A stretch of 64,000 nucleotides of DNA from Haloplanus natans DSM 17983 (GTDB lineage: Archaea > Halobacteriota > Halobacteria > Halobacteriales > Haloferacaceae), in the NCBI RefSeq assembly GCF_000427685.1, contig NZ_KE386573.1, forward strand, positions 620,001 through 684,000, in the 5' to 3' direction. The notes beneath the pieces are model-generated. The model saw only the letters and a program-made list of their open reading frames with translations, searched no databases and was not told where the DNA came from. Position 1 is the stretch's first letter. Every line of letters starts with the position of its first letter. The position numbers were made by a program, and so were the translations under genes. Below are positions 33,224-51,832 of the stretch, piece after piece.

Positions 33224-35431
33224 TCAGCGCCCGTCCGGGGCGACGAGTTCGACCGGATGGGTAACGTCGCGAACGAAGAGGTCGGCCATCTGCTCCGTAC
33301 AGGAGGTGCCGCTCGCGACGAGCGTCCGGTCGGACTCGTCGGCGAACTGGTCGTGGAGGTCCTCGCCGACGTCCAGCGAGAGTTCGTAGTACTCGGATTT
33401 GTAGCCGAAACTGCCGGCCATGCCACAGCACTCGACGTCGGAGGTGACGATGTCGAAGCCGAGGTCTTCGAGGACGGCCTCGGTGTAGGCGTCGACGCCC
33501 AGCGTTCGCTGCTGGCAGTGGCTGTGGTAGGCGACGGGGACGGTGGCGCCCGCGAGGGCGTCCGCGTCCGCGCCGTTCGACAGCAGGCCGTAGACGTACT
33601 CCATGATCTCGTAGCTGTTCTCCGAGAGTCGCGCGTGGGAGTCGGCGTCGAGGAGTTTCTCGTACTCGCGGCGCATCATGGCGAGGTCGGACGGTTCGAC
33701 GACGACGACGTCGAACCCGGCGTCGAGATAGGGGTCGAGGTCGGCCGCCACCGCCTCGGCGTGGTCGGTGGCCGTCCGTACCATCCCCTGTGAGAGGGGG
33801 GCCCGTCCACTCTCGATGGGCGAGCCGAGTTCGACGTGAACGCCGAGAGCCTCCAGCGTCCGGACCGCTGCCTTGCCCCGGTCGGTGAGGACGTAGTTCG
33901 TGTAGGCGTCCGGGTAGAGAACGACCGCTCGGTCGGCGGTGGCGTTCGGCGCACGCGGGCGGCGGGATTCGAACCAGTCGACGAGCGTCTCGCGTTCGAA
34001 CTGCGGCAGGTCCCGGTCGGGGGCGACGCCGAGATAGCGGTCCATCAGGGTTCGGACGGGGCCGAGTTGCGCCACCCAGTTCGACACCGGTGCGGTCGCA
34101 CTGCCGAGTTTTGCGAGCGTTCCGAAGTTCCCGAAGAACCGCTTCTGCGGACTGACCGTCCCTTCGGCGTCCGGCGTGAGACCCTCGACGAGGAACTCGA
34201 ACTCCGAGGGGGGCGTCTCGCCGTTGATCCTGTCGCGAACGACGGTGTTTATCCACGGGATGTCTATCTTCACCGGACAGGCGTTCACGCACCGCGAACA
34301 CCCCGTACAGAGGTCGTTGAACTCGCTTGTGGTCTCCAGCCCTTCGATTCCGGCCTCCCACCCGGTGGCGATGCCGCCAGTGTACGTCTCGCCGCCGAAA
34401 GCGTGGCCGCCGACGTGCTGGAAGTTGCCACAGGAGTTCGCACACGCTCCACACCGAATACAGTACAGCGTCTCGCGCAGGTGGTCGTCCTCGCGCATCT
34501 CGGTCCGCCCGTTGTCGATGAGGACGAGGTGAAAGTCGCGTTCGCCGTCACCGCTCCCGAGGGGTTCGTCGGGGTTCTCGAAGTCGATAGTGGGCGAATC
34601 GACTGGTGGCGTGAGCATCGAGACGTACTGGGAGATGTCCTGTCCCGTCGCCGTCTTCGAGATGAGTTCGACGAAGGGCTGGAGTGTCTCGGCGTTCGGG
34701 ATGATCTTCTCGATGCCCGCGACGGCGACGTGGGTGTCCGGCGTTACCGCCGACTTCCGGGCGTTGCCCTCGTTCGTCACGAGCGTGATGGTCCCCGACT
34801 CCGCGAGGACGAAGTTCGCCCCCGTCATCCCGACGTCCGCGTCCCGGATTCGTTCTCCGAGGTAGTCCCGGGCGAACTCGGTGAGTTCCTCGGCCGTCTC
34901 GAAGGGTTCCTCGGGGTCGAACACACGGTTGAACAGTTCCGCGACGGCCTCCCTGGACTTGTGCAGAGACGGCCCGATGAGATGCGACGGAGCCTCGTCC
35001 GCGACCTGGATGACGAACTCCCCGAGGTCCGTCTCGAAGACGTCGACGCCCATCGCCTCGAGTGCCTCGTTGACCTCGATCTCCTCCGTCGTCATCGATT
35101 TCGACTTCACGAGGGTCTCGGCGTCTTTCGACCCGACGACATCCGTGATGTAGCGGTTCGCGTCGTCGGCGTCGTCGGCGACGTAGAGGGTGCCGCCGTT
35201 GGACTCGACGCTCTCGCGGAGAGTGTCGATCAGGTCCGGGAGGTTCTCGATGGCGTCTTCTTTGATCCGCCGGGCCTGCGTCCGGAGGTCCTCGAACTCG
35301 TCGAATCGCTCGATGGCCTCGTAACGCCCCTCGTTCAGGTGCGTGACGTTCTCGTGGACGGCGTCCCCCTCGGTTTCGAGGAGGTGCCGAATCCGTTCCG
35401 CCTTGCGTCGGCGCTTGCGTTGTGCGCTCAT
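33224..35431 (-). CDS. LutB-LutA fusion: LUD domain, two [4Fe-4S] motifs and CCG domain
   Basis: A 735-residue fusion corresponding to the LutB and LutA (LldF/LldE) parts of the lactate-utilisation complex. The LUD domain spans about 60-315 (GMTGANFVLAESGTITLVTNEGNARKSAVTP). Two ferredoxin motifs follow: C324-C327-C330-C334 and C375-C378-C381-C385. The C-terminal CCG region has SHCQQRTLG and ECCGMAGSFGYK, as in GlpC/LutA. Such complexes oxidise L-lactate or related 2-hydroxyacids and pass electrons to the membrane. The start overlaps the LutC stop by four bases. Confidence 0.88.
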   Translation of the reverse strand: MSAQRKRRRKAERIRHLLETEGDAVHENVTHLNEGRYEAIERFDEFEDLRTQARRIKEDAIENLPDLIDTLRESVESNGGTLYVADDADDANRYITDVVGSKDAETLVKSKSMTTEEIEVNEALEAMGVDVFETDLGEFVIQVADEAPSHLIGPSLHKSREAVAELFNRVFDPEEPFETAEELTEFARDYLGERIRDADVGMTGANFVLAESGTITLVTNEGNARKSAVTPDTHVAVAGIEKIIPNAETLQPFVELISKTATGQDISQYVSMLTPPVDSPTIDFENPDEPLGSGDGERDFHLVLIDNGRTEMREDDHLRETLYCIRCGACANSCGNFQHVGGHAFGGETYTGGIATGWEAGIEGLETTSEFNDLCTGCSRCVNACPVKIDIPWINTVVRDRINGETPPSEFEFLVEGLTPDAEGTVSPQKRFFGNFGTLAKLGSATAPVSNWVAQLGPVRTLMDRYLGVAPDRDLPQFERETLVDWFESRRPRAPNATADRAVVLYPDAYTNYVLTDRGKAAVRTLEALGVHVELGSPIESGRAPLSQGMVRTATDHAEAVAADLDPYLDAGFDVVVVEPSDLAMMRREYEKLLDADSHARLSENSYEIMEYVYGLLSNGADADALAGATVPVAYHSHCQQRTLGVDAYTEAVLEDLGFDIVTSDVECCGMAGSFGYKSEYYELSLDVGEDLHDQFADESDRTLVASGTSCTEQMADLFVRDVTHPVELVAPDGR

Positions 35432-35937
35432 CGGTCGGTGATGAGGACGACTTCGACGTGTTTCGGGCCGTGGACGCCCTCGACGAGGGCGCCCATGTCG
35501 CCGGTCGAACTCACGCCCGTGGCGAAGACAGACGACCCGCCGGCGGCAAAGCGGCCGTCGAGGTAGTCGGTGGCCGCTTCGACATCCGGGAGGACGTCGC
35601 TCTCGCGGACGACGGCGACGTGTGTCGGTGGATAGAGGCTGACTGGCTCGGTCCCGACCGGGTCGCTATCCACGACGAGCGTTCCGTACTCGGCGACGGC
35701 CTTGCCGACGGGTGTGACGCCAACCTCGGCCGCCTTCAGCAATCGAGGGGTCGGTGGCGTCTCGACGACGGTGTCGGCGAGAGAGAGGCCGTCGTGCGCC
35801 TCGAAGGGGACGCCGACGGCCGGTTCGGTGACGAGTGAATCTATCGTCGCGGCGAACTCGTCGGCCTCGGTGCGCGTCAGCGACACGCCCAGGTCGGAGA
35901 GCGACGACTCGAATCGTCGTGTGTCAGCGGCACTCAT
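35428..35937 (-). CDS. lutC: LutC-type LUD domain protein
   Basis: This 169-residue LUD-fold protein shows the LutC C-terminal signature FATGVSSTGDMGALVEGVHGPKHVEVVLI at about 138-166. It is the third component of the 2-hydroxyacid (lactate) oxidation complex, encoded first in the operon. The start MSAADTRRFESS at 35935-35937 is chosen over a frame running 216 bp further upstream, since the operator box and promoter lie at 35975-35992. Confidence 0.87.
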   Translation of the reverse strand: MSAADTRRFESSLSDLGVSLTRTEADEFAATIDSLVTEPAVGVPFEAHDGLSLADTVVETPPTPRLLKAAEVGVTPVGKAVAEYGTLVVDSDPVGTEPVSLYPPTHVAVVRESDVLPDVEAATDYLDGRFAAGGSSVFATGVSSTGDMGALVEGVHGPKHVEVVLITDR

Positions 35938-35974: not shown

Positions 35975-35992
35975 CTCCATATGGCGGCCACC
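35975..35992 (-). promoter_or_regulatory. Operator-like box upstream of lutC
   Basis: In gene direction the box reads GGCCGCCATATGGAGTAGAT: a CATATGGAG core followed after about four bases by a weak TATA-like TACATCTTA. The same core and spacing occur before the regulator and the hydroxyacid dehydrogenase genes. Confidence 0.6.
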
Positions 35993-36315
35993 CTCACGCG
36001 GCGCGAGCGTCGACCGCGGGACGCCGCTCTGAGAACGGCGGTCGACCCCCGAGATTCGGGATCGGTCGGTCGACCCCTCGCCGCCGTCGGGGGTGTTCGG
36101 TGCCCGTCCTGGGAACCAGTCACCGCCGTTGGCGGTGACGTAGTCGCGGCCATGGGGGTCGAACGCGATACCGACAGCTCGGGACGACCACGCCGTGCTC
36201 GTCGCGCGATAACTCGAAATCATCCGACTCACGGTGCGGTTTCTCGCCACGGAGCCGGGCCGAGAGCACTGTCCGGAGCGTGCGGGTTTATCAGCGACGC
36301 CCCGCAGTGTGGCGC
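35993..36315. other. Intergenic region between lutC and the M20 hydrolase
   Basis: This 323-bp stretch has no gene that I can support. It contains a perfect short palindrome GTCACCGCCGTTGGCGGTGAC-like hairpin (about 36119-36138), a second inverted repeat with GTCGACC arms around 36045-36075, and a TTTATCAG TATA-like element at about 36287 before the hydrolase. No clear copy of the island box precedes the hydrolase itself. Confidence 0.6.
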
Positions 36316-37563
36316 ATGGACATCGACGCAGCGCGACTCCGAGACGACGTGGAGACGAACGCGACGTTCGGCGCGGTGGACGCCGAGGACGGACGGGGCC
36401 GAACCGTTCTCACGGGGAGCGCCGCCGACAGACGCGCCCGCGAGTACTTGCTCGGGCGACTCGAAGACGCCGGCCTCGACGTTCGTGTGGACGCCGTCGG
36501 CAACGTCGTCGGGCGGTGGACGCCGCCTGGGTGTGACCCCGAGGCCGCCCCCGTCGCCTTCGGGAGCCACCTCGACTCCGTCCCGCGCGGTGGCATCTTC
36601 GACGGGCCACTCGGGGTCTACGGCGCACTGGAGGGCGTCCGCGCGATGCAAGGGAGCGACGTCTCCCCCGCCCGCCCCGTCGATGTCGTCTGTTTCACCG
36701 AAGAGGAGGGGGCCCGATTCGGCGTCGGAACCCTCGGGTCCTCGGTGGCGACGGGCCACCGCGGGACGGCGGACGCACTCGCCCTCGAAGACGACGACGG
36801 CGTCACCCTGCGTGAACGCCTCGAAGGGATCGGGTTCGACGGCGACGACGAGGTTGACGCCAGCGAGTGGGACGCGTGGATGGAACTGCACATCGAACAG
36901 GGGACGCGACTGACGGCCGCCGGCGCGAGCGTCGGCGTCGTCGAGTCGATCACCGGCATCACGAACTGCGAGGTGACGGTGAGGGGCGAGGCGGACCACG
37001 CCGGATCGACGCCGATGTACGAACGCGCGGACGCACTGACGGCCGCCTCGGAGTTCGTCCTCGACCTCGAACGCGCGGCGGAGGAACTCGCGACGACGAG
37101 CGAGGCAGCCGTCGGCACCGCCGGCAAGGGATCGATAGCGCCGAACGCGCGAAACATCGTTCCCGAGAGAGTGCAGTACCAACTCGACATCCGTGACGTC
37201 GACCGGGGGAAAATGGACCGACTCGTCGAGCGCTGTCGGACGAGTCTCGCACGCATCGAGCGAACTCGGGGCGTCGGAACGTCGCTCACGCGGTACCGGG
37301 ACAGCCCGCCGAGTCGGATGGCAGAGCGGTGTCTCACGGCCGCGGACGACGCGGCGACGGCGCGGGGCGTCGAGTCGATTCGCCTGTACTCGGCGGCGAT
37401 GCACGACACGGCGAATCTCGCGGACGTGACCGACGCCGGCCTCCTGTTTGCACCCTCGGTCGACGGGGTCTCACACTCGCCGCGGGAGTGGACCGACTGG
37501 GACGACTGCGCGACGGCGAGCGGCGTCCTCGCGGAGGCCGTTCGGGCCCTCGCGTCGACCTGA
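36316..37563 (+). CDS. M20-family amidohydrolase (hydantoinase/carbamoylase, AllC/HyuC-like)
   Basis: This 415-residue Zn-dependent hydrolase of the allantoate amidohydrolase / N-carbamoyl-L-amino-acid hydrolase family has metal ligands in FGSHLDSVPRGGIFDG (His, Asp), EEEGARFG (Glu-Glu), HIEQG (His) and the C-terminal MHDTANLAD segment. The dimerisation lid begins at GITNCEVTVRGEADHAGSTPM. The family cleaves carbamoyl or ureido groups from amino acids. In a hut cluster without HutG, it is a candidate for removing the formimino group from N-formimino-glutamate; this is inference. The ATG at 36316 is preferred to one 36 bp upstream. Confidence 0.85.
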   Translation: MDIDAARLRDDVETNATFGAVDAEDGRGRTVLTGSAADRRAREYLLGRLEDAGLDVRVDAVGNVVGRWTPPGCDPEAAPVAFGSHLDSVPRGGIFDGPLGVYGALEGVRAMQGSDVSPARPVDVVCFTEEEGARFGVGTLGSSVATGHRGTADALALEDDDGVTLRERLEGIGFDGDDEVDASEWDAWMELHIEQGTRLTAAGASVGVVESITGITNCEVTVRGEADHAGSTPMYERADALTAASEFVLDLERAAEELATTSEAAVGTAGKGSIAPNARNIVPERVQYQLDIRDVDRGKMDRLVERCRTSLARIERTRGVGTSLTRYRDSPPSRMAERCLTAADDAATARGVESIRLYSAAMHDTANLADVTDAGLLFAPSVDGVSHSPREWTDWDDCATASGVLAEAVRALAST

Positions 37564-37575
37564 CCCGTCCACGAC

Positions 37576-37593
37576 CCACCATCCGGAGGGTGG
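37576..37593 (+). promoter_or_regulatory. Operator-like palindrome upstream of ridA
   Basis: CCACCATCCGGAGGGTGG is close to a perfect inverted repeat around TCCGGA and matches the island box. It is followed by CCTTTTTTCTT, and the ridA GTG lies 33 bp after the box. Confidence 0.65.
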
Positions 37594-37625
37594 CCTTTTT
37601 TCTTGGGGTTCGCGGACTGTTGGCT

Positions 37626-38069
37626 GTGACCCGGTACGCAATCAACCCCCCTCGACTCAAGGACGCCCGCGGAATCGGCTACAACCACGCGATAGTCGAC
37701 GGCGGAACGTTCTACATGGCCGGACAGGTGGCGATGGACGAACACTCGAACGTCGTCGGCGACGACATCGAGACACAGGCCCGGAAGGCCTACGAGAACG
37801 TCGGCATCTTGCTGGGGACCATCGGCAAGACGTACGCCGACATCGCCAAGGTGACCACCCACATTGTCGACCCGAAGGAACACTACTACGACGGCTACAA
37901 GGAGGTCTACTGGGAGACGTTCGAGGAACCCTACCCCTGCCACACGGTTCTCGGACACGAGCAGTTGGCCAACGAGGATTACCTCGTCGAAATCGAAGTC
38001 GAGGTGCCACTGACGGACGCGGACGTCGACGGCATCGAACCGGACGGCGACGTGATCCGCGAGGTCTGA
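37626..38069 (+). CDS. RidA/YjgF family enamine/imine deaminase
   Basis: This 147-residue Rid-family protein clears reactive 2-aminoacrylate-type enamines or imines made by PLP or amino-acid-oxidising enzymes. It has YNHAIVDGGTFYMAGQVAMDE, ETQARKAYENVGILLGTIGKTYADIAKVTTHIVD and the end ANEDYLVEIEVEVPL. The canonical catalytic Arg segment (SRSAV...V-E-V-E) is replaced by HTVLGHEQLANEDYLVEIEVE, so it may belong to a non-archetypal Rid subgroup. The start is a GTG at 37626. It is followed by the aminotransferase, a logical pairing. Confidence 0.85.
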   Translation: MTRYAINPPRLKDARGIGYNHAIVDGGTFYMAGQVAMDEHSNVVGDDIETQARKAYENVGILLGTIGKTYADIAKVTTHIVDPKEHYYDGYKEVYWETFEEPYPCHTVLGHEQLANEDYLVEIEVEVPLTDADVDGIEPDGDVIREV

Positions 38070-38146
38070 TAGTGATCATCGTAAGTCAGTACTGGTGGGT
38101 CGCCGACCCGTTCCGGCGACCCACCGGTAAACAGTTACAATGAACA
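38067..38146. repeat. Nested palindromic element, type A core, full copy
   Basis: The element begins with the ridA stop codon itself (TGATAGTG...). It has the inner hairpin ACTGGTGGGTCGCC / GGCGACCCACCGGT and the usual hinges (GTAAGTCAG on the left, AAACAGTTAC on the right). The outermost arms are only weakly complementary, unlike those at 3239 and 58747. Confidence 0.85.
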
Positions 38147-38160
38147 GTACGACTCGCCGC

Positions 38161-38190
38161 CCGCCATACGGAGGGGCCGGCGTTTATTAT
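38161..38190 (+). promoter_or_regulatory. Operator-like box and TATA element of the aminotransferase
   Basis: CCGCCATACGGAGGGG matches the island box. It is followed after five bases by CGTTTATTAT, a TATA element; the ATG lies 22 bp beyond, so the mRNA is nearly leaderless. Confidence 0.65.
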
Positions 38191-38211
38191 GCAAGCCACG
38201 CATCCTCGGGC

Positions 38212-39372
38212 ATGACGAAGGGACCCGAACTCTCGGGACTCGTGACGCGAATGCCGCGGTCGGGAATTCGAGAGGTGTTCGACGCGGCACAGGCGTACGA
38301 CGACCTCGCGGATCTGAGCATCGGCGAACCCGACTTCGCCACGCCCGCCCCCGTAGCGACTGCCGTCTCCGAGGCCGTCGGGACGGGCGTAAGCAGTTAC
38401 ACCGAGACGGTCGGCCGCGCCGACCTCCGGGAGTCGATCGCGACGAAACTCGCCGACGCGAACGACATCGACGCGGCAGCCGAATCGGAGGTGATCGTCA
38501 CGCCCGGCGCGATGGGCGCGCTCTTCGCCGCGGTGCACGTCCTCTGTGATCCCGGCGAGGAGGTCCTCGTCCCGGAACCGTACTGGCCGAACTACCACGG
38601 GCACGTCGCCAGCGCGGACGCCCGGTTGGTCGCCCTGCCGACGGACGGGACGTTCGTCCCGGCCCCCGAGAGCGTCACGGCGGCGGTGACCGAAGACACG
38701 ACGGCCATCCTCCTGAACACGCCGGGGAATCCGACGGGGGCGGTCGTCCCACCGGACCGACTGCGGGCCCTCGGCGAGGTGGCGGCCGAACACGACCTGT
38801 GGATACTCGCGGACGAGACGTACGAAGACCTGGTGTACGACGGTGCGACCCACCACTCGCTTGCGAGCGACGGGGAGCGGTTCGCACACACGGTGACGGT
38901 TCACAGTTTCTCGAAGTCCTACGCGATGACGGGGTGGCGAATCGGCTACGCGAGCGCGCCGGCCCACGTCGTCGACGCGATGCGCGTCCTGCAGGAACAC
39001 ACGGTGTCGTCCGTGGCCGAACCCGCGCAGGTTGCCGCGGCCGCCGCACTCGACAATCGGGACATCGTGACCGACATCCACCGCGCGTTCGCCGACCGCC
39101 GGGAGTTGATACTCGGGCGACTCGCGGAGATGGACGGCATCGACCCTGGGACGCCACAGGGCGCGTTCTACGTGTTCGCCGACGTCTCGGATATCGCCGA
39201 CGACAGTCGGGCGTTCGTCGAACGACTCATGGCCGACGCGGGTGTCGCCGCCGTCCCTGGATCGGTGTTCGGTGACGCCGGCGAGGGCCACGTTCGGTTC
39301 TCGTATGCGACCGACGCCGCGACCATCGAGACCGCGATGAACCGACTCGAAGGATTGCTCGAAGCGGTCTGA
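38212..39372 (+). CDS. Class I/II PLP-dependent aminotransferase
   Basis: This 386-residue fold-type I aminotransferase starts with the family MPRSGIREVFDAAQ and has LSIGEPDFATPAPV, the LNTPGNPTGAVV Asn motif, DETYEDLVYDG and the PLP lysine in SFSKSYAMTGWRIGYASAP (about 245-263). It should move an amino group between an amino acid and a 2-oxoacid. In this island it could link histidine and imidazolepyruvate, or another imported amino acid; the substrate is not visible. It has its own operator-bearing promoter. Confidence 0.92.
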   Translation: MTKGPELSGLVTRMPRSGIREVFDAAQAYDDLADLSIGEPDFATPAPVATAVSEAVGTGVSSYTETVGRADLRESIATKLADANDIDAAAESEVIVTPGAMGALFAAVHVLCDPGEEVLVPEPYWPNYHGHVASADARLVALPTDGTFVPAPESVTAAVTEDTTAILLNTPGNPTGAVVPPDRLRALGEVAAEHDLWILADETYEDLVYDGATHHSLASDGERFAHTVTVHSFSKSYAMTGWRIGYASAPAHVVDAMRVLQEHTVSSVAEPAQVAAAAALDNRDIVTDIHRAFADRRELILGRLAEMDGIDPGTPQGAFYVFADVSDIADDSRAFVERLMADAGVAAVPGSVFGDAGEGHVRFSYATDAATIETAMNRLEGLLEAV

Positions 39373-39396
39373 CCGTCGACGACGCGAGTCGTCGTG

Positions 39397-39418
39397 CCAC
39401 ATATGGAGGTTATATATG
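39397..39418 (+). promoter_or_regulatory. Operator-like box and TATA element of the D-2-hydroxyacid dehydrogenase
   Basis: CCACATATGGAGG is followed directly by TTATATATG. The distance from this TATA to the ATG at 39446 is about 28 bp, which points to a leaderless transcript and argues against the ATG at 39416, which lies inside the TATA box. Confidence 0.7.
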
Positions 39419-39445
39419 TTCTGGGAGGGAGTGATCACTCCGCAT

Positions 39446-40423
39446 ATGGGACTACGTGTCGTCATGCTCGATCCGGACTGGTTCGGCGACGTCGAGGCGG
39501 AACGTGACCACTTCGAACGACTCCTCGGCGACGGCGTCGTCGTCGAGGCGATAGACTGCACCGACGCCGAGATACCGGAACGGGTCGGCGAGGCGGATTT
39601 CCTGCTCTCGCACTACACGAACGTGTCGGCCGAGAGTATGGACGCGACGGGGTGTTCGGTCGTCTCGCGGTACGCGACGGGCACCGATGGCATCGACATC
39701 GACGCCGCGACGGAACGCGGCGTCCGGGTGACCCGAGTGCCGACCTACTGCAACGACGAGGTGGGGATGCACGCACTGTCGCTCGCGCTGACGTTCGTCC
39801 GTGGGCTTCCGACGTACGACGCCTCGACGGCGGACGGGCGATGGGCGTGGGGAGACGCCGCCCCCCTCCAACCGGTGTCGGACCTCACGTTCGGCCTGCT
39901 GGCGTTCGGGAACAAGGGTCGCTCTACCGGCGAGAAAGCGCGCGCGCTGGGATTCGACGTGTGCGCGTACGACCCGTACGTGGCCGACGACGACATCGAA
40001 GCCGAGGGAGTACGACCCGTGGACTTCGAGACGTTGCTCGCGGAGGCCGACGTGCTCTCGATTCACACGCCGCTGACCGACGAGACGGCGGACATGATCG
40101 ACGCCGACGCACTCGACGCACTCGACGACGACGCCATCGTCGTCAACACCGCTCGCGGCCGCGTGCTGGACGAAGACGCCCTTCTAGACGCACTCGACGA
40201 GGGGCGACTCCGCGGAGCGGGCCTCGACGTCCTCCGGACGGAACCGCCGGGCGACGACGACCCGCTTCTCGGCCGGGACGACGTCGTCGTGACGCCGCAC
40301 GCGGCGTGGTACTCGACGCGAACCGCTCGGGAACTCCGCCGCCTCGGGACGGAGATCGCCGTCGCCGCCTACGAAAAACGGGAGACGGACGGCCTCGTCA
40401 ATCCGGGCGTGATCCGGGACTAA
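39446..40423 (+). CDS. D-isomer-specific 2-hydroxyacid dehydrogenase
   Basis: This 325-residue NAD(P)-dependent dehydrogenase interconverts a 2-oxoacid and a D-2-hydroxyacid. Catalytic residues are recognisable: Arg in NTARGRVLDEDAL, Glu in LRTEPPG and His in TPHAAWYS. The nucleotide-binding loop reads FGLLAFGNKGRSTG, where the usual GxGxxG has Ala for the first Gly. A Tyr/Cys-rich PTYCNDEVGMHALSLAL follows the family's VP.Y..EEVA pattern. It is convergent with the ABC ATPase (4-bp gap). A role in reducing or oxidising a keto acid made by the neighbouring aminotransferase is likely. Confidence 0.9.
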   Translation: MGLRVVMLDPDWFGDVEAERDHFERLLGDGVVVEAIDCTDAEIPERVGEADFLLSHYTNVSAESMDATGCSVVSRYATGTDGIDIDAATERGVRVTRVPTYCNDEVGMHALSLALTFVRGLPTYDASTADGRWAWGDAAPLQPVSDLTFGLLAFGNKGRSTGEKARALGFDVCAYDPYVADDDIEAEGVRPVDFETLLAEADVLSIHTPLTDETADMIDADALDALDDDAIVVNTARGRVLDEDALLDALDEGRLRGAGLDVLRTEPPGDDDPLLGRDDVVVTPHAAWYSTRTARELRRLGTEIAVAAYEKRETDGLVNPGVIRD

Positions 40424-40427
40424 CCGC

Positions 40428-41537
40428 TCACTCGTCGGGGTAGAGCAAGGCGTCACCGATGTCCCACCCGACGGTGACGGGGTCACCCCGTTGGTGGATG
40501 ACCTGCGTGTCGGAACTCCGGTCGACGATGCGGAGCGTTGGCTCGAACTCGGGAATGGAGACGTGATACTGCGTCCGGTCGCCCTCGAAGGACACCTGGT
40601 CGACCGTCGCGTCGTAGGTGTTGTCACACTCGGCGTCGAGTTCGACCTGTTCTGCGCGAATCGCGACGACGACGTCGGAGTGCCCCTCGACGGCGGCGGC
40701 GGAAACCCGCATCGTCCCGTCGCCCACGGCGACGGTGGCGGTGTCGTCGGTTCGGTCCGTCACGGTACCGTAGAGGAGCGTGGTGTTCCCGATGAAGTCG
40801 GCGACGAACGCCGTTTCGGGGGACGCATACAGGTCCTGTACGGGGTCGAGTTGTTCGAGGCCGCCGTCGCGGATGACGGCGATTCGGTCGGCCATCGAGA
40901 GCGCCTCCGTCTGGTTGTGCGTGACGTGGACGATGGTGAGTTCGGTCTCCTCGTGGATGCGGGCCAGCTCCGCTCGCATCTCCTCGCGGAGTTTCTTGTC
41001 GAGCGAACTCAGGGGTTCGTCGAGCAACAACAACGTGGGCTCGTAGACGATGGCGCGGGCGAACGCGACCCGTTGCTGTTGGCCGCCCGAGAGAGCGTCG
41101 ACCGGTTTGTCGGCGTAGTCGACGGGCAAGCGGACGAGTTCGAGCACGTCTTCGACCTTCCGGTCGATGTTCTCGACGCTCTCGCGCCGCATCTTCAGGG
41201 GGAACGCGATGTTCTCCTTGACGGTCATGTGGGGGAACAGCGCGTGGCTCTGGAAGACGAGGCCGATGTCCCGTTCGTACGGCGGTTCGTCGGAGACCGG
41301 CTGCTCGTTGATATAAATCTCGCCCGTCGTCGGCTTCTCGAAGCCGGCAATCATGTGCAGGAGCGTCGTCTTGCCGGCACCACTCGGTCCGAGTATCGTG
41401 ATGAACTCGCCGTCGTTTATCGGAATCGTCACGTCGTCGACGGCACAGAGCGAACCGTACTCCTTCGTCACGCCGTCGATACGAACGACGGAGTCGGATG
41501 AATCGGTCACGGTTTCGTCGAATTGGTGGGTCGCCAT
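40428..41537 (-). CDS. ABC transporter ATP-binding protein, PotA-like
   Basis: This 369-residue ATPase has Walker A GPSGAGKT (50-57), the signature LSGGQQQRVAFARA (about 150), Walker B LLLLDEPLSSLD and the H-loop HVTHNQTEALS. The C-terminal TOBE domain (about 285-365) is typical of PotA/FbpC-type importers. It is the energy-coupling subunit for the permeases at 30345-32107 and the binding protein at 47188-48378. The ATG at 41537 is preferred over one 54 bp upstream because the operator box and promoter lie just upstream (41582-41598). Confidence 0.93.
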   Translation of the reverse strand: MATHQFDETVTDSSDSVVRIDGVTKEYGSLCAVDDVTIPINDGEFITILGPSGAGKTTLLHMIAGFEKPTTGEIYINEQPVSDEPPYERDIGLVFQSHALFPHMTVKENIAFPLKMRRESVENIDRKVEDVLELVRLPVDYADKPVDALSGGQQQRVAFARAIVYEPTLLLLDEPLSSLDKKLREEMRAELARIHEETELTIVHVTHNQTEALSMADRIAVIRDGGLEQLDPVQDLYASPETAFVADFIGNTTLLYGTVTDRTDDTATVAVGDGTMRVSAAAVEGHSDVVVAIRAEQVELDAECDNTYDATVDQVSFEGDRTQYHVSIPEFEPTLRIVDRSSDTQVIHQRGDPVTVGWDIGDALLYPDE

Positions 41538-41581
41538 CGTCTGCTGTCGACACCTGTTTGCCCTGAGGGCACATAACACGA

Positions 41582-41598
41582 CCCTCCGCATGGGGGGG
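41582..41598 (-). promoter_or_regulatory. Operator-like box upstream of the ABC ATPase
   Basis: In gene direction the box reads CCCCCCCATGCGGAGGG. An A+T-rich CTTAACT lies just upstream and GTGTTATG just downstream, so the TATA element cannot be fixed by eye. Confidence 0.6.
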
Positions 41599-41607
41599 CA
41601 GTTAAGT

Positions 41608-42258
41608 TCACGTGAGGAAGTAACGCAGGAGGTTCTTGATAATCTTGTTTTCCGCCCGTCGGAGATGTTCCTCGAACGTCCGCCGGGAGACGTCCATCTC
41701 CGCCGCGATGTCGCCGGTGGTCGCCTCTCGTGGAATCTCGTAATATCCCTCCTCGACGGCCAACGAGAGGGCGCGTTTCTGTCCGTCCGAGAGACTCGGC
41801 AGCGCGGAATCGAGCATGAGAATCGGAATGTCGGGCGTGATGGAACTGATTTCGCGTTTGGCCTCGACGGTGACGCGGTGGTCGTCGCTGATGTCGTGAT
41901 AGACCTGGGAGAGTTGCTCTTCGGTGAGCGCGAGGACGCGTGCGAAGAGCGCTCCGTTTCGATACGTCAGCGGTGGGAGCGAGAGACACTGGTGCGGTTG
42001 GAGATAGCCTTCGAGGAGGTCGTCACGGAAATCGAGGAGACACGAACCGGTGATGAGAATCGCCTCTTCGTCCTTGTAGACGATCTCCTGAATGCCGATG
42101 GTGTCACGGAACGTCTCGACCGGTGCCTCGATGTCGGTCCCACTCACGTAGACGAGGTCACAGTACTGATTGCACCACATCTCGACGCGTACGTCCTGGT
42201 TCATCGTCACGTCCGCGTACGGACTCGTGTGGTCGATACGAAGCGTTGCCTCGTACAT
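41608..42258 (-). CDS. HTH-10 (bacterio-opsin activator type) transcriptional regulator
   Basis: This 216-residue protein has an N-terminal ligand/sensor region of about 155 residues, without a recognisable PAS or GAF domain. It ends with the haloarchaeal HTH-10 domain: LSDGQKRALSLAVEEGYYEIPREATTGDIAAEMDVSRRTFEEHLRRAENKIIKNLL (about 155-211). Such proteins are typical one-component regulators. It lies between the ATPase gene and divergent hutU, and its own promoter carries the island box. It is the only regulator inside the direct repeats, so it is the best candidate to bind that box. Confidence 0.9.
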   Translation of the reverse strand: MYEATLRIDHTSPYADVTMNQDVRVEMWCNQYCDLVYVSGTDIEAPVETFRDTIGIQEIVYKDEEAILITGSCLLDFRDDLLEGYLQPHQCLSLPPLTYRNGALFARVLALTEEQLSQVYHDISDDHRVTVEAKREISSITPDIPILMLDSALPSLSDGQKRALSLAVEEGYYEIPREATTGDIAAEMDVSRRTFEEHLRRAENKIIKNLLRYFLT

Positions 42259-42301
42259 TGATATCTATTCACACACCCGTTGCACGTTGTAGTATTTATA
42301 T

Positions 42302-42317
42302 CCCCCTCCATATGATG
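42302..42317 (-). promoter_or_regulatory. Operator-like box upstream of the regulator gene
   Basis: In gene direction the box reads CATCATATGGAGGGGGATAT and runs into a TATAAATA element at about 42290-42298. The box is on the upstream (BRE) side of TATA, the position expected for activation or for competition with TFB. Confidence 0.65.
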
Positions 42318-42352
42318 ACGTTCCGACGGCGAATCACGGCGTGTCGCGGCGA

Positions 42353-42383
42353 ATTATTATATAAATCCCTCGCCATATGTGGG
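42353..42383 (+). promoter_or_regulatory. hutU promoter with operator-like box
   Basis: TATTATATAAATCC is followed by CTCGC and then CATATGTGGG. The same TATAAATCC, five-base spacer and CATATG recur before the binding-protein gene at 47135-47162, so these two promoters have matching geometry with the box downstream of TATA. Confidence 0.7.
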
Positions 42384-42426
42384 TGCGCTCTTCATCGTGA
42401 CGAGACGCAAATGGAGCGGACGAGAG

Positions 42427-44181
42427 ATGTTTCACCATCCACGTGACGACACCCCGAGTGAGCGCTGGCAGGCCCTCGACGGCGCACCGGAAGGGACGGA
42501 ACTGAACGCGAAGGGATGGCGGCAGGAAGCCGCATACAGACTGCTGAACAACAACCTCGACCCGGAGGTCGGGGAGGACCCGGAGAGTCTCGTCGTCTAC
42601 GGCGGTACGGGTCGTGCGGCGCGCAGTTGGGACGCCTACGACGCCCTCACGGACGAACTCCTCGAGTTGGAGGACGACGAGACCCTCCTCGTCCAGAGTG
42701 GGAAGCCGGTCGGCCGGTTCAAAACGCACGAGCGGTCGCCGCGCGTCCTCATCGCCAACTCGAACCTCGTCGGCAAGTGGGACGACTGGGACCACTTCCA
42801 CGAACTCGAAGCGGAGGGGTTGATGATGTACGGGCAGATGACCGCCGGGTCGTGGGCCTACATCGGCACGCAGGGCATCATTCAGGGAACCTACGAGACG
42901 CTGGCGGAGTGTGCGAACCAGCATTTTGAGGGCACCCTCGAGGGGCGGGTCGTCGTCACGACGGGGCTCGGCGGGATGGGCGGCGCACAACCGCTCGCGG
43001 TGACGATGAATCGCGGCGTCTGCATCACCGCCGAAGTCGACGAGGCCCGAATCGACAGACGCCTCGAAACCGGCTACTGTCAGGAGAAGACCGACGACGT
43101 CGGCGAGGCGATTCGGAAAGCGAGGGAAGCCGCCGAAGCCGGCGAACCGTACAGCGTCGGCGTCCACATGAACGCCGCGGAGTTCTACGAGGCGCTCCTC
43201 GAACGCGAGTTCGTCCCCGACGTGGTGACGGACCAGACGTCCGCACACGACGCCCTCGAAGGCTACATCCCGAGCGGATACACGATGGCGGAAGCCGAGG
43301 AACTCCGGGAGTCGGACCCCGATGCCTACCTCGAAGCGAGCCTCGAAACGATGGAGCGAGTCGTTGACGGCATCCTCGAACTGCAAGAGCGCGGCGCGAT
43401 CGCCTTCGAGTACGGCAACAACATCCGGGGACAGGTCAAAGAGTACCGCGATCCGGACGCCCCGTGGGCGCTCACTGGCACGCCGGGGGACGAACGCGAC
43501 CCCTTCGATTTTCCGGGGTTCGTCCCCGCGTACATCCGGCCCATGTTCTGTCGTGGGCAGGGGCCGTTCCGCTGGCTCGCACTGTCCGGCGACGAGGCCG
43601 ACATCCACCGAACGGACGAGGCGATCAAGGAACTGTTCCCGGAGAAAGACCGGCTGGTCCGCTGGATAGAACTCGCTCAAAAGCAGGTCGAATTCCAGGG
43701 CCTCCCCGCTCGGGTCTGTTGGCTCGGTTACGAAACCAACGAGGAAGGGATCACGGAACGCGCGCAGTTCGCCCTCCGCATCAACGAACTCGTGCGTGAC
43801 GGCGAGATTTCGGCACCCATCGTCGTGACCCGCGACCACCTCGACGCCGGGTCCGTCGCCTCGCCCAACCGCGAGACCGAGGCGATGCGCGACGGGTCCG
43901 ACGCCGTTGCCGACTGGCCCATCCTGAACGCGCTCTTGAACTGTGCGGCCGGAGCCGACATCGTCAGCGTCCACGACGGGGGCGGCGTCGGCATCGGCAA
44001 CTCCCTGCACACGAACAACCACGTCGTCCTCGACGGGACGGCCCAGGCCGCCGAGACCGCAAAACGCGTCTTCACGACGGACCCTGGAATGGGCGTCGTC
44101 CGCCACGCCGACGCCGGATACGAGGCCGCCATCGAGGAAGCGGCGCGTTCGAACGTCCACATCCCCATGCGTGAAGAATGA
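42427..44181 (+). CDS. hutU: Urocanate hydratase
   Basis: This 584-residue NAD-dependent enzyme converts urocanate to 4-imidazolone-5-propionate. Family motifs include [11 protein letters not shown], a [13 protein letters not shown] loop, [62 protein letters not shown] and [14 protein letters not shown]. The active-site Cys sits in the [12 protein letters not shown] segment. The ATG at 42427 is preferred because the longer frame would start within the operator box. HutI follows after 46 bp. Confidence 0.96.
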
Positions 44182-44227
44182 CCCGACCGAACACTCGCGC
44201 TTCGGCCGTCGGCCGGCGGAGACGGCG

Positions 44228-45445
44228 ATGACGAAAACGACCGTCGTTCACGGCGCACGGCAACTCGTCCGGGTAGACGAATCCGGCGTCGACACCGTCG
44301 AAGACGGGGCCGTCGCCATCGAGGACGGCACCGTCGTCGCCGTCGGATCGACGGCGGAGGTGACGCGGGAGTACCCCGCCGAGACGGCCGAGACGGCCGT
44401 CGACGCGACGGGGAAGACCGTGCTTCCGGGCTACGTCGACCCACACACCCACGCCGTCTTCGCGGGCGAACGCGTCGACGAGTTCGCCGCGAAGCTCGCG
44501 GGCAAGAGCTATCAGACGATTCAGGCCGAAGGCGGCGGCATCTTCTCGACGGTTCGGGCGGTTCGGGAGGCGTCACTCGCGGAACTCACCGACACCCTTC
44601 TGGACCACCTCGACGTGATGCTGGCGCACGGCACGACGACGGCGGAGGTGAAATCGGGGTACGGCCTCTCCGTCGAGTCGGAGCGTCGGCTGCTCGAAGC
44701 CGTCGCCCGAGCGGACGAACGCCACCCCCTCGACCTGGTGCCGACGTTTCTGGGGGCCCACGCCGTCCCCGAGGGGACCGACCCCGACGAGTACGTCGAC
44801 GAGGTCGTCCACGAACAGATACCCGCCGTCGCCGACGCCGACCTCGCCGTCTTCTGTGACGTCTTCTGCGACGAGGGGGCGTTCACGCGCGAACAGTCCC
44901 GTCGCGTCCTCGAAGCGGGACTCGAGTACGGCCTCGCGCCGAAGATTCACGCCGAGGAGTTCGAACGCCTGGGCGGCGCGCAACTGGCCGCGGACCTCGG
45001 CGCGGTGAGCGCCGACCACCTCCTGCGGGCGACGGCCGAAGACGCGGCGGCGATGGCAGCGGCCGACGTGACGCCCGTGTTGCTCCCGGGAACGGCGTTC
45101 ACCCTCGGGACGGCCTACGCGGACCCGGCCCCATTCGGGACGGCCGGCAGTCGGGTCGCACTCGCGACTGATTTCAACCCCAACTGCTACTCACAGAGCA
45201 TGGAGTTCGCAATGGCGCTCGCGTGCAACGGGATGCGGATGACGCCGGCAGCGGCGCTCCGTGGGGCGACCCACCACGCCGCCGCCGCACTGGCGCTCGA
45301 CGACGGGACGGGGACGCTCCGGAAGGGCGCTCCCGGCGACGTCGTCGTCGCGGACGCCCCGCGATTCGAGTACGTCCCGTACAACGCGGGCGTGCGAACG
45401 ACCGAAACCGTCCTCAAGGGGGGGGAGGTGGTTCACCGTGCGTGA
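44228..45445 (+). CDS. hutI: Imidazolonepropionase
   Basis: This 405-residue amidohydrolase-superfamily enzyme opens the imidazolone ring to N-formimino-L-glutamate. The first metal ligands are H73 and H75 (DPHTHAVFAGER). Others are in KSGYGL (substrate), LGAHAVPEG (His), KIHAEEF (His) and ALATDFNPNCYS (Asp). The start follows hutU by 46 bp, and the stop overlaps the hutH start by eight bases, so all three genes form one translationally coupled operon. Confidence 0.96.
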   Translation: MTKTTVVHGARQLVRVDESGVDTVEDGAVAIEDGTVVAVGSTAEVTREYPAETAETAVDATGKTVLPGYVDPHTHAVFAGERVDEFAAKLAGKSYQTIQAEGGGIFSTVRAVREASLAELTDTLLDHLDVMLAHGTTTAEVKSGYGLSVESERRLLEAVARADERHPLDLVPTFLGAHAVPEGTDPDEYVDEVVHEQIPAVADADLAVFCDVFCDEGAFTREQSRRVLEAGLEYGLAPKIHAEEFERLGGAQLAADLGAVSADHLLRATAEDAAAMAAADVTPVLLPGTAFTLGTAYADPAPFGTAGSRVALATDFNPNCYSQSMEFAMALACNGMRMTPAAALRGATHHAAAALALDDGTGTLRKGAPGDVVVADAPRFEYVPYNAGVRTTETVLKGGEVVHRA

Positions 45446-47006
45446 CGTCGCCGTCGACGGCGAGACGCTGTCCGTCGAGGACGTCGAGGCCGTCGCCCGA
45501 GGGGGTGCGTCCGTGACCGTCCCGGAAGACGCCCGCGAGGCGGTCCGCGAGTCGCGCCGGCGAATCGAAGACATCCTCGAAACCGACGAACCCGTCTACG
45601 GCGTCAACACGGGCTTCGGCGAACTCGTCCAGGAACGCATTCCCAGGGATCAGATCGAGGCGATTCAGCGGAACCTCATCCGCAGTCACGCGGCGGGAGC
45701 GGGCGAGTCCCTCCCCGAGGACGTCGTCCGCGCGATGATGACGACGCGCCTCAACGCCCTCGTGAAGGGGTACTCGGGCGTACGGGAACGCGTCGTCGAC
45801 TTGCTCGTCGGGATGCTCAACGAGGGCGTCCACCCGCTCGTGCGGTCGAAAGGGAGTCTCGGCGCGAGCGGTGATCTGGCACCGCTCGCACACATGACGC
45901 TCGTCCTCGTCGGCGAGGGGGAGGCCCTCGTCGACGGCGAGCGACTGGACGGGGCGGTGGCCCTCGAACGGGCGGGACTCGAACCCCTCGACCTCCGCGC
46001 CAAGGAGGGACTGGCGCTCATCAACGGCACGCAACTCACCGTCAGTCTCGCCGCACTCGCGGTGCTCGACGCCGAACGCGCCTTCCGCGCCGCGGACGTC
46101 GCGGGCGCGATGACGACCGAGGTGGCGAAGAGTACGACCGCGTCGTCGCACCCGCGCATCAACGACGTGCGCCCCCACCGAGGGCACCGTGAAGCGGCCG
46201 AGAACGTGTTGGCTCTCACCGAACACTCCGAAATCGTCCAGTCACACCGAAACTGTGACCGAGTGCAGGACGCCTACTCGATTCGCTGTCTCCCGCAGGT
46301 CCACGGGGCCGTCCGCGACGCGGTTCGTCACCTGCGGGACGTCGTCTCGGTGGAGTTGAACAGTGCGACCGACAATCCCCTCGTCTTCGACGCGGACCAC
46401 ATCGACCCGCGGGCCAGCGGGACCGACGAATCGGCGGTCGTGTCCGGTGGCAACTTTCACGGCGAACCGCTGGCGCTCCCCCTCGATTACGTGACGAGTG
46501 CGATGACCGAACTCGCGGCGATTAGCGAACGCCGTCTCGACCGTCTCCTCAATCCGAACGTGCAGGAAGACCATCTGCCGCCGTTTCTCACCGCCGACGC
46601 CGGCCTCCAGTCCGGCTACATGATCGCACAGTACGTCGCGGCGGACCTCGTGAGTACGAACCGTTCGGAGGGCCGGCCGTCGATGGACAGCGCGGTCGTG
46701 AGCGGCAACCAGGAGGACCATGTGAGCATGAGCGCACAGAGCGCGCTGCGCGCCAGTGACGCCGTCGAACGGACGACGCGCGTCGTCGCGTCCGAACTCG
46801 TGTGTGCGGTCCAGGCGCTCGATTTCGTGGAGTCGTACACCCCCGGTGTCGGCACGAAGGCGGCGTACGAGTGCGTCCGCGAGGAGGTCCCGCATCTCGA
46901 TGCGGACCGACCGATCCACGTCGACATCGACGCTGCCACCGAACTGATCACGTCCGACCGCCTGTTGGACGCCGTCGAAGACGCCCTCGACGAACCGCTT
47001 CAATAG
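45438..47006 (+). CDS. hutH: Histidine ammonia-lyase
   Basis: This 522-residue enzyme eliminates ammonia from L-histidine to give urocanate. The MIO-forming triad Ala143-Ser144-Gly145 is in KGSLGASGDLAPLAHM. Other family motifs are YGVNTGFGEL (with Tyr54), QEDHVSMSAQSA and NPLVFD. The start is a GTG at 45438-45440, inside the end of hutI; there is no nearby in-frame ATG. It is the entry enzyme of the hut pathway, encoded last in the operon. Confidence 0.96.
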   Translation: MRDVAVDGETLSVEDVEAVARGGASVTVPEDAREAVRESRRRIEDILETDEPVYGVNTGFGELVQERIPRDQIEAIQRNLIRSHAAGAGESLPEDVVRAMMTTRLNALVKGYSGVRERVVDLLVGMLNEGVHPLVRSKGSLGASGDLAPLAHMTLVLVGEGEALVDGERLDGAVALERAGLEPLDLRAKEGLALINGTQLTVSLAALAVLDAERAFRAADVAGAMTTEVAKSTTASSHPRINDVRPHRGHREAAENVLALTEHSEIVQSHRNCDRVQDAYSIRCLPQVHGAVRDAVRHLRDVVSVELNSATDNPLVFDADHIDPRASGTDESAVVSGGNFHGEPLALPLDYVTSAMTELAAISERRLDRLLNPNVQEDHLPPFLTADAGLQSGYMIAQYVAADLVSTNRSEGRPSMDSAVVSGNQEDHVSMSAQSALRASDAVERTTRVVASELVCAVQALDFVESYTPGVGTKAAYECVREEVPHLDADRPIHVDIDAATELITSDRLLDAVEDALDEPLQ

Positions 47007-47134
47007 GGACGCCGAGTCAGCTAATCACACGATTTTCGGGAGATTTTTAGCGCAATCCATACTGTTTTCCACACATCATCCGATGAATCTCGATGTTACA
47101 GGAGCGAGAGGCCGATTGCTCCCGTACCACGAGT

Positions 47135-47162
47135 GTATATAAATCCGACCACATATGGAGGG
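47135..47162 (+). promoter_or_regulatory. Promoter and operator-like box of the binding-protein gene
   Basis: TATATAAATCC, a five-base spacer GACCA, then CATATGGAGGGT. The geometry equals that of the hutU promoter. The ATG within the CATATG box is therefore unlikely to be a start codon. Confidence 0.7.
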
Positions 47163-47187: not shown

Positions 47188-48378
47188 ATGAACTACCTAC
47201 ACATGACAAGAGATACCAAACCAAACGGGTCGAAGAGGCTATCGAAACGCTCACGTAGGCGGTTTCTCGCAACCGTCGGTGCGACGACCGTCGCCGGACT
47301 CGCGGGCTGTTCCGGCGGCGGGTCGGGTGGCGGTTCCGGTGGCGGTTCCGGCGGTACGTCGACGGGCGAGGCGAACTCGACGCCGCAAAAGCCGAACAGC
47401 ATCACGGTACGTGCGTGGGGTGGTGCGTGGCAGGACAACCTTCAACAGTACGTCGCCAAACCGTTCACCGAGGCGACGGGCATCAACGTCGAGTTCGACA
47501 ACTCGACCGAAGAGGAGATGCAGGGGAAGATTCGGACGGCCATCCAGCAGAACCGCAAACCCCCGGTCAACGTCAACTGGTCGCTGGAGAAGACCAGCTA
47601 TCGCTCCTATCGGATGGGGCTGATGGAGCCGTTGAACCCCGAAATCGTCCCGAACGTGCAAGGGTTGTTGGGTGCGAGCAAACCGCAGGTCGAAGGCGCC
47701 GAGTGGCCGTTCGTCAACCTCTACTCGTACACCTACGCGCTGACGTACAACACCGATCAGGTGACGAGCGAACCCAAATCGTGGAACGTCTGGTGGGAAG
47801 ACCAGTGGGAGAGTTCCATCGGTCTGTACCCCGGCGGCCACGGCGTGACGCCGGTCGTCGCCAAGATGACTGGAACGGAGATGGGCCCCGTCGAGGAGAT
47901 GCAGCCCGTCTGGGACAAATATCAGGCGCTCAAACCGAACGTCGGGACGATCGGCGACGACTCCCACCTCACGCAGAACCTCCGGCAGGGCGAAGTTTCG
48001 ATGGCCGTGATGCTTCCGGCGAACATCATCAACGCCCAAGACGAGGGCGCACCCGTCGAGTACACCATCCCCGAGGAAGGCGCACGGGCGGGCCGCGACA
48101 CGATGTGGATCCCCACGAACCAGGACGAGAAGTACGTCTACTGGGGACAGAAGTTCATCAACACCGCCGCCGCCGCCAAGAACCTCGGCCCGTGGGCCGA
48201 GAACCTCGGTGTCGCACCGCTTCACCCCGAGGCGGAGATCCCCGGCTGGATGAAGGAGTCAGTCGCCTTCCCCACCAGCGAAGAGCAGTTCAACCGGATG
48301 ATAACCGTGCCGCTCGATCTCGTCGTCGAGTACCAATCCAAGTGGGAAAGCAAGGTCAGCGAGATGATGCAGGCCTAG
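47188..48378 (+). CDS. ABC transporter substrate-binding lipoprotein, PotD/PotF-like (Tat)
   Basis: This 396-residue extracellular binding protein has a Tat lipoprotein signal: KRSRRRFLATVGATTVAGLAGC with twin Arg and an LAGC lipobox, then a Gly/Ser-rich tether. The mature part has the periplasmic-binding fold of the spermidine/putrescine group (VRAWGGAWQDNLQQYVAKPFTEATGINVEFDN, later WNVWWEDQWESSIGLYPGG). It may start at 47188 or at the ATG at 47203. It delivers substrate to the permeases encoded 15 kb away. It is transcribed separately from hutUIH but with the same operator. Confidence 0.92.
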   Translation: MNYLHMTRDTKPNGSKRLSKRSRRRFLATVGATTVAGLAGCSGGGSGGGSGGGSGGTSTGEANSTPQKPNSITVRAWGGAWQDNLQQYVAKPFTEATGINVEFDNSTEEEMQGKIRTAIQQNRKPPVNVNWSLEKTSYRSYRMGLMEPLNPEIVPNVQGLLGASKPQVEGAEWPFVNLYSYTYALTYNTDQVTSEPKSWNVWWEDQWESSIGLYPGGHGVTPVVAKMTGTEMGPVEEMQPVWDKYQALKPNVGTIGDDSHLTQNLRQGEVSMAVMLPANIINAQDEGAPVEYTIPEEGARAGRDTMWIPTNQDEKYVYWGQKFINTAAAAKNLGPWAENLGVAPLHPEAEIPGWMKESVAFPTSEEQFNRMITVPLDLVVEYQSKWESKVSEMMQA

Positions 48379-50563: not shown

Positions 50564-51832
50564 TCACTCGAAGCGGGTGCGGACGCTTTCGGCGTGAGCC
50601 TCGAGGCCCTCCAGTTCGGCCAGCGTGACGATGGTGTCGGAAATCGAATCGAGTACGTCGCCGTCGAGTCGCTGGACCGTTCGTGAACGGACGAAACTGT
50701 CCACCGAGAGGCCGCCCGTCGTCCTGGCGGACTGCGATGTCGGCAGGACGTGGTTCGTGCCACTGGCGTAGTCGCCGGCGGCGACGGGACTGTACTCGCC
50801 GACGAAGACGCTCCCGGCGCTGTCGATGTGGTCGAGCGTCTCGTCGTCGTCTGCGGTCATCACCACAAGGTGTTCGACGGCGTACTCCTCGGCGAACGCC
50901 GTGGCGTCGGCCATCGAATCGGCGACGAAGACGCCGCTACTCTCGTTTGCTAACGCCTCCTCGATGACGTCCGTCCGGTCACGTTCCGGGGCTTGGCGCT
51001 CGACTTCCGCGACGACATCCTGAGCGAGCGTTTCGTCCGGCGTCACCGCGACGGCCGACGAGTGGGGGTCGTGTTCGGCCTGCCCGACGAGTTCCGCGGC
51101 GACGTAACGGGGGGTCGCCGTCCCGTCGGCGACGACTAACACCTCCGTCGGCCCGGCTATCATGTCGATCGCCACGTCACCTCTGACCTCGGCTTTCGCC
51201 GCGGCGACCCATCGATTCCCCGGTCCGACGATCTTTTCGACGGCCGGTATCGTCCCCGTCCCGTGAGCGAGCGCCCCGATGGCCTGAGCCCCGCCGACGC
51301 CGTACACTTCGTCGGCACCGGCGAGTCCGATAGCCGCGAGCGTCACCGGGTTCAGTTCGTCCGCCGGCGGCGTCACCACGACGACTTCCTCGACGCCCGC
51401 CACTTTCGCGGGGACGACGGTCATGAGTGCCGTCGAGGGGTACGCCGCACTGCCGCCGGGAACGTACGCCCCGACGCGCCGAATCGGTCGAAACTGGCGG
51501 CCGAGAATCGATCCGTCGAACGAGTCGGTCCAGTCGGTCCGAACCTGACGCTCGTGGAACGCCCGGATTCGCTCTGCGGCCGCCTCGATGGCCTCGCGTA
51601 TCTCCGGATCGACGTTCGACGCCGCCCGTTCGGTCGCATTCGTGATGTCGAATTCGTCGACATCGACGCCGTCGAACTTGCGACTGAACTCACGAAGCGC
51701 GTCGTCGCCGTCGGTCCGAACCTCCTCGACGATGGCCCGCACGTCGTCGCGGATTTCATCGATTCCGGCGTCTCGGTCCAAAACGACCGCCCGTTCGGAC
51801 GGGGTGAGGGCGGAGAGCGATTGTGTCTCCAT
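50564..51832 (-). CDS. hisD: Histidinol dehydrogenase
   Basis: This 422-residue Zn- and NAD-dependent enzyme normally oxidises L-histidinol to L-histidine. Zinc and catalytic residues are all present: Gln and His in LVGQAEHDPHS, Glu-His in YAVEHLVVMT, Asp in AAGDYASGTNHVLPT, and the last His in EGLEAHAES. Other motifs are RRVGAYVPGGSAAYPST and GPGNRWVAAAK. It may be the biosynthetic enzyme, but it lies at the end of the catabolic island and has the island operator upstream. HisD paralogues elsewhere oxidise other amino alcohols or diols, so a catabolic role is possible. Confidence 0.9.
   Translation of the reverse strand: METQSLSALTPSERAVVLDRDAGIDEIRDDVRAIVEEVRTDGDDALREFSRKFDGVDVDEFDITNATERAASNVDPEIREAIEAAAERIRAFHERQVRTDWTDSFDGSILGRQFRPIRRVGAYVPGGSAAYPSTALMTVVPAKVAGVEEVVVVTPPADELNPVTLAAIGLAGADEVYGVGGAQAIGALAHGTGTIPAVEKIVGPGNRWVAAAKAEVRGDVAIDMIAGPTEVLVVADGTATPRYVAAELVGQAEHDPHSSAVAVTPDETLAQDVVAEVERQAPERDRTDVIEEALANESSGVFVADSMADATAFAEEYAVEHLVVMTADDDETLDHIDSAGSVFVGEYSPVAAGDYASGTNHVLPTSQSARTTGGLSVDSFVRSRTVQRLDGDVLDSISDTIVTLAELEGLEAHAESVRTRFE

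Follow-up and report, generated by a model that had tools for sequence, protein, structure and literature searches.

A PF24280 and HTH_10 protein as putative local regulator of a transporter/transaminase cluster that includes hut genes in Haloplanus natans

What does the regulator encoded next to hutU in Haloplanus natans DSM 17983 control? Its gene lies in a window of 64,000 nucleotides, the whole stretch of DNA that we analysed. A preliminary description presented it as the candidate regulator of the hut cluster, which would also control itself and might sense a pathway metabolite such as urocanate. Our results suggest a wider role. We consider it about 75% probable that the protein is a local one-component regulator acting via CATATG palindromes at five cluster genes. 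It is best regarded as a local regulator that serves a transporter, transaminase and hydroxyacid cluster, which here includes hut, and not strictly as a hut regulator.

The gene is a clean ATG-start open reading frame of 216 amino acids (Table 1). That it encodes an HTH-10 protein is correct: the C-terminus matches HTH_10 (PF04967) with 68.2 bits against a cut-off of 23.1 (E = 5e-19; residues 156-208). The N-terminus covers the whole PF24280 profile (169.8 bits, cut-off 27). The earlier statement that it carries no PAS, GAF or receiver signature also holds; Pfam yielded no match to these domains or to BAT (PF15915) at E values up to 1, and none to a GntR winged helix or UTRA domain of the HutC type. 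We dropped the filing of the regulator as Bat-type because GAF, PAS and BAT are all absent. The description of the N-terminus as an undescribed sensor domain is only half right. No described ligand was found for it, and its function is undescribed, but the family already has a name in Pfam, HVO_A0563_N, taken from H. volcanii HVO_A0563.

The genome encodes one PF24280 protein and has 22 HTH_10 matches. In the cluster, we found no second regulator among the nine other products scanned, from the M20 amidase to the SBP; RidA, whose frame starts at 37626, was scanned in the wrong frame, and neither its lack of a Pfam match nor its identity values should be given weight. Hence, the claim of a single regulator in the cluster holds for the products scanned, as does the claim that its gene is divergent from hutU. 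A further HTH_10 regulator is encoded at 55003-55656 on the minus strand, outside the boxed cluster; it is a single chain whose N-terminal domain is of BAT type. When the profiles of the two proteins were compared, essentially the HTH part alone aligned.

Table 1. Coordinates of the regulator, its putative boxes and the surrounding genes in the window.
Feature	Position	Strand	Basis or remark
PF24280 + HTH_10 one-component transcription regulator, 216 aa	41608..42258	-	ORF, Pfam, AlphaFold model
N-terminal domain PF24280 (HVO_A0563_N), residues 3-146, putative sensor	41821..42252	-	Pfam, model, fold search
HTH_10 DNA-binding domain, residues 156-208	41635..41793	-	Pfam
Box CTCCATATGGCG, lutC-like promoter	35975..35986		CCATACGGAG at equivalent place in H. 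denitrificans
Box CCACATATGGAGG, 2-hydroxyacid dehydrogenase promoter	39397..39409		Same 13-mer, same promoter in H. denitrificans, H. sulfurifontis
Extra CCATATG over start codon of 2-hydroxyacid dehydrogenase gene	39443..39449	-	
TATA box of regulator, ATATAAATA	42293..42301	-	Spacing to box as in relatives
Regulator's own box CTCCATATG	42306..42314		Half match, TATA-side half only
TATA-like element TTATATAAAT before hutU	42357..42366	+	Predicted from sequence
Box CGCCATATG, hutU promoter	42371..42379		
Box CCACATATGGAGG, SBP promoter	47149..47161		Same 13-mer, same promoter in H. denitrificans, H. sulfurifontis
LutB/LdhH-like iron-sulfur protein, after lutC-like gene	33224..35431		Profile match
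lutC-like gene	35428..35937	-	Putative, assigned by position; no NCBIfam match
Class I/II aminotransferase	38212..39372	+	Profile match
D-2-hydroxyacid dehydrogenase	39446..40423	+	Profile match
ABC transporter ATPase, directly behind regulator (putative operon)	40428..41534	-	Profile match, synteny
hutU, urocanate hydratase	42427..44181	+	Profile match; start placed at 42427 in this analysis
hutI, imidazolonepropionase	44228..45445	+	Profile match
hutH, histidine ammonia-lyase	45438..47006	+	Profile match
ABC transporter substrate-binding protein (SBP), PotD-like	47188..48378	+	Profile match; start chosen by comparison with the H. denitrificans locus (L104)

The genes around the regulator combine hut with transport and amino acid conversion. 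hutU, hutI and hutH are present, but no hutG match exceeds the cut-off anywhere in the genome, where arginase-type matches are sub-threshold. The M20 amidohydrolase (36316-37563) is a candidate for a formiminoglutamate-handling enzyme. With the aminotransferase and the 2-hydroxyacid dehydrogenase, the cell could convert histidine to imidazole-pyruvate and imidazole-lactate. Beside the cluster there is a hisD match (50564-51832, minus strand), which is also kept in Haloferax loci without hut.

A short sequence box hints at common control. CCATATG occurs seven times in the window against 0.95 expected, a number reached by none of 100 shuffles. The longer CKCCATATG occurs 13 times in the 3.8 Mb genome, and six of these occurrences (five sites) fall within the approximately 11 kb from 35975 to 47160 (Poisson P about 3e-11, with the density in the remaining genome as reference). 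All five sites precede genes: the lutC-like gene, the 2-hydroxyacid dehydrogenase gene, the regulator, hutU and the SBP gene. None of the seven remaining sites in the genome precedes an evident histidine or transport gene. A genome-wide scan with a degenerate 12-mer and two mismatches was uninformative.

The regulator's own promoter had been said to contain one of the clearest boxes, which our data contradict. From 42306 it reads CTCCATATGATGA, and the match is limited to the half beside its TATA box. The best copies are those of the exact 13-mer CCACATATGGAGG, found twice in the genome, at 39397 and 47149.

Haloferax denitrificans and H. sulfurifontis show that the cluster can be found without hut. 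Their orthologues are 87% identical to the window regulator and lie in a cluster of conserved order: hisD, SDR, glycolaldehyde reductase, SBP, regulator, ABC ATPase, 2-hydroxyacid dehydrogenase, aminotransferase, M20 amidase and lut genes. hutU, hutI and hutH are missing from this cluster in both species. Nevertheless, CCACATATGGAGG is present in exactly two copies per genome, at the promoters of the 2-hydroxyacid dehydrogenase and SBP genes, and the H. denitrificans regulator promoter again carries a half box, CAAATGGAGG. The hut genes of both species are located elsewhere, beside another PF24280 regulator (L177, L182) that is 43% identical to the window protein; the promoter region of the L177 regulator contains a different palindrome, CCACCGTGAGGTGG. 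The tree places the window protein outside the main hut-linked branch, in a distinct branch of five rows (support 100/98). Members of this branch adjoin hut as well as ABC ATPase, aminotransferase and 2-hydroxyacid dehydrogenase genes in Halopenitus and Halobellus, and hut and an ABC ATPase gene on a 6.6-kb Haloarculaceae contig. Because of the Haloferax clusters without hut, the synteny and the separate branch, the regulator appears to belong with the transporter/transaminase cluster, of which hut is a frequent but dispensable member. In Halopenitus persicus, the interval from the regulator gene to the ABC ATPase gene contains a perfect palindrome, CCTCCATATGGAGG (L106, 6787-6800).

Across Halobacteria, PF24280 and hut are closely linked. 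Of 391 genomes, 238 contain PF24280 and 185 contain hutU. PF24280 is found in 174 of the 185 hutU genomes, compared with 64 of the 206 without hutU. The regulator is present and divergent from hutU in 28 of 30 loci that were fetched for their hutU score, and divergent from hutU in at least 65 of 79 regulator loci, counts in which closely related loci are not independent. The same dependence applies to the palindrome TCCRNNYGGA. An exact copy is present in 28 of the 112 intergenic regions between regulator and hutU (25%; shuffles, 0.7%), and a copy with at most one mismatch in 75 (shuffles, 14%); its typical distance from the regulator start is 36-41 nt. The exact palindrome is at its usual place in none of nine hutU promoters from genomes without the regulator. 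With a looser palindrome score, two of these nine reach the threshold, about the shuffled rate, and this score separates linked from unlinked hutU promoters weakly. Aligning 53 non-redundant loci on the dyad shows a strong TATAAA on the regulator side (-17 to -12) and, on the hutU side, a weaker TATT (+15 to +18); these loci were chosen for the palindrome, which fixes CC/GG, and the flanking TATA elements played no part in the choice. The window regulator shares the arrangement of the hut-linked clade, divergent from hutU with a palindrome in between.

Not all PF24280 proteins fit this pattern. A second subfamily, without the WCN motif, is found mostly in genomes without hutU, genus mates included. 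In L067 (1489-2223; relatives L062-L077) its gene is divergent from a rhodanese/metallo-beta-lactamase-fold gene, which suggests a sulfur-linked role for that subfamily. Two loci with hutU and without PF24280 (L093, L094) have an opposite-strand upstream gene for a small ribbon-helix-helix-like protein starting MGNKNKTISFRVNED, possibly a replacement regulator.

The N-terminal domain offers some clues to what the protein senses. Structure prediction, suggested earlier as a check, produced a confident AlphaFold model (pLDDT 88.5 for the full length; 91.0 for the N-terminal domain, pTM 0.84). In the PDB, the domain has a single significant fold match, Ta1207 of Thermoplasma (5m86; E = 1.6e-4, TM 0.61). 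Known ligand binders with ferredoxin-like or ACT-type folds (aspartate kinase, the AHAS regulatory subunit, ArgR/AhrC) appear at E values of 0.2-0.8, which are insignificant, and searching solved structures by sequence yielded nothing of use. Among 52 homologues, the invariant residues include W28, C29, N30, D34, T70, C73, P95, P96 and Y99, and H32 is nearly invariant. The resulting WCN-H-D motif is common to the window protein and the hut-linked clade. A metabolite pocket in the PF24280 domain is plausible, and urocanate is one possible ligand among several.

We propose the following mechanism. A regulator dimer would bind palindromes built on CATATG with CC/GG flanks, of which CCACATATGGAGG is the best copy, next to the TATA boxes of the lutC-like gene, the 2-hydroxyacid dehydrogenase gene, hutU and the SBP gene. 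It would control its own gene through the half match, and such autoregulation via a half box beside its own TATA box is plausible. The PF24280 domain would bind a small metabolite that the cluster imports or produces, with histidine or an imidazole relative as the most likely candidate, and DNA binding would change as a result. We infer the pairing of this protein with the box from linkage and co-conservation. The near confinement of the box to the cluster and the presence of CCACATATGGAGG at the same two promoters in three genomes support the cluster-regulator reading. More tentatively, and with some doubt on our side, PF24280 with WCN-H-D...C could be a new archaeal sensor of histidine or imidazole metabolites. 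Hut-linked members would then be general haloarchaeal hut regulators using one palindrome midway between opposed core promoters, and the window branch would bring the same sensor to a transporter/transaminase cluster.

One could also argue that the protein is dedicated to hut, detects urocanate, histidine or formiminoglutamate by direct binding and controls itself. Its position divergent from hutU, here and in the homologous loci counted above, the strong co-occurrence with hutU and the motif common with the hut-linked clade are all compatible with this idea. We nevertheless regard it as unlikely, because an 87%-identical orthologue and the same box occur in a cluster without hut, while hut in those genomes has its own regulator and a different box. 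Thus, of the earlier cluster-regulator claim, the single local regulator and a cluster-specific box conserved at the same genes stand, but the restriction to hut is weakened. Even less probable is a redox or metal sensor working through C29, H32 and C73. Invariance of both cysteines and near-invariance of the histidine would suit such a sensor, but N30, D34, P95, P96 and Y99 are conserved equally, the domain has no CXXC or known metal motif, and the genomic context is catabolic. Least probable of all is that the box is owned by a factor encoded elsewhere, for example a global regulator, with the HTH_10 protein as a mere target or neighbour. The half match at the regulator's own promoter would agree with that, as would the fact that the protein-box pairing is predicted from linkage. 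Yet the box is nearly confined to a cluster in which no second regulator was found, and box type tracks regulator type in genomes with two paralogues.

Whether the local regulator activates or represses is a closer question. Sites of the archaeal TrmB regulators are associated with activation when upstream of BRE/TATA and with repression when downstream (PMC4158304). Three of the boxes in the window (lutC-like gene, 2-hydroxyacid dehydrogenase gene, regulator) lie upstream of TATA; those at hutU and the SBP gene lie between a strong TATA and the gene. A repressor that binds beside TATA, blocks general factors or RNA polymerase and is released by its ligand is a serious contender, although we lean against it. 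The boxes at hutU and the SBP gene are where a TrmB-family repressor site would be expected (PMC4158304), but the boxes of the lutC-like and 2-hydroxyacid dehydrogenase genes, like those of the hut-linked clade, are upstream of TATA, and the hutU-side element in that clade is weak, as expected of activated promoters. For the wider hut-linked clade we favour activation, because the palindrome is about 15 bp from a strong regulator-side TATA and about 15 bp from a weak hutU-side TATT. A single operator between two core promoters is the geometry expected for an activator of both, or for a hutU activator with self-feedback. In the window cluster, both activation and repression may occur.

In the literature searched, we found neither a paper on HVO_A0563 nor one on a hut regulator of haloarchaea, and the one paper found on the Haloferax hut cluster calls that cluster not yet experimentally verified. 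Control of archaeal histidine breakdown appears to be undescribed in this literature. The kind of protein is known. What appears to be undescribed is its conserved pairing with hut in haloarchaea, along with the predicted operator. With a regulator in 174 of 185 hutU genomes of Halobacteria and a predicted operator, archaeal hut control becomes directly testable in Haloferax volcanii. The paralogue pair with different boxes in one Haloferax genome provides a natural specificity test.

Dedicated local control factors of hut are known from bacteria: HutC, a GntR protein, in proteobacteria and HutP in Bacillus. The likeness to these is in dedicated local control of hut, and we found no homology to the window protein. 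With Bat of Halobacterium salinarum the window protein has in common a C-terminal helix-turn-helix and the role of a local regulator near its target genes. Bat activates the bop operon and has GAF and PAS/PAC domains (PMC3184054), whereas the window protein has neither GAF nor PAS. If our proposal is right, it would resemble TrmB in using a palindrome beside BRE/TATA whose side sets the effect (PMC4158304), but its DNA-binding domain and sensor are unrelated and it is not a member of that family. Closest are the HVO_A0563-type proteins of H. volcanii, which also have a PF24280 N-terminus and HTH_10. The H. volcanii hut genes are HVO_A0559 to HVO_A0562 (PMC8305020); the adjoining locus numbers suggest that HVO_A0563 is also beside hutU, and in Haloferax, the genes for relatives of the same type are divergent from hutU. 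The window protein differs from this type in forming part of a separate five-row clade, in its identity of about 43% to the hut-linked proteins of Haloferax, and in belonging to a cluster that can exist without hut genes.
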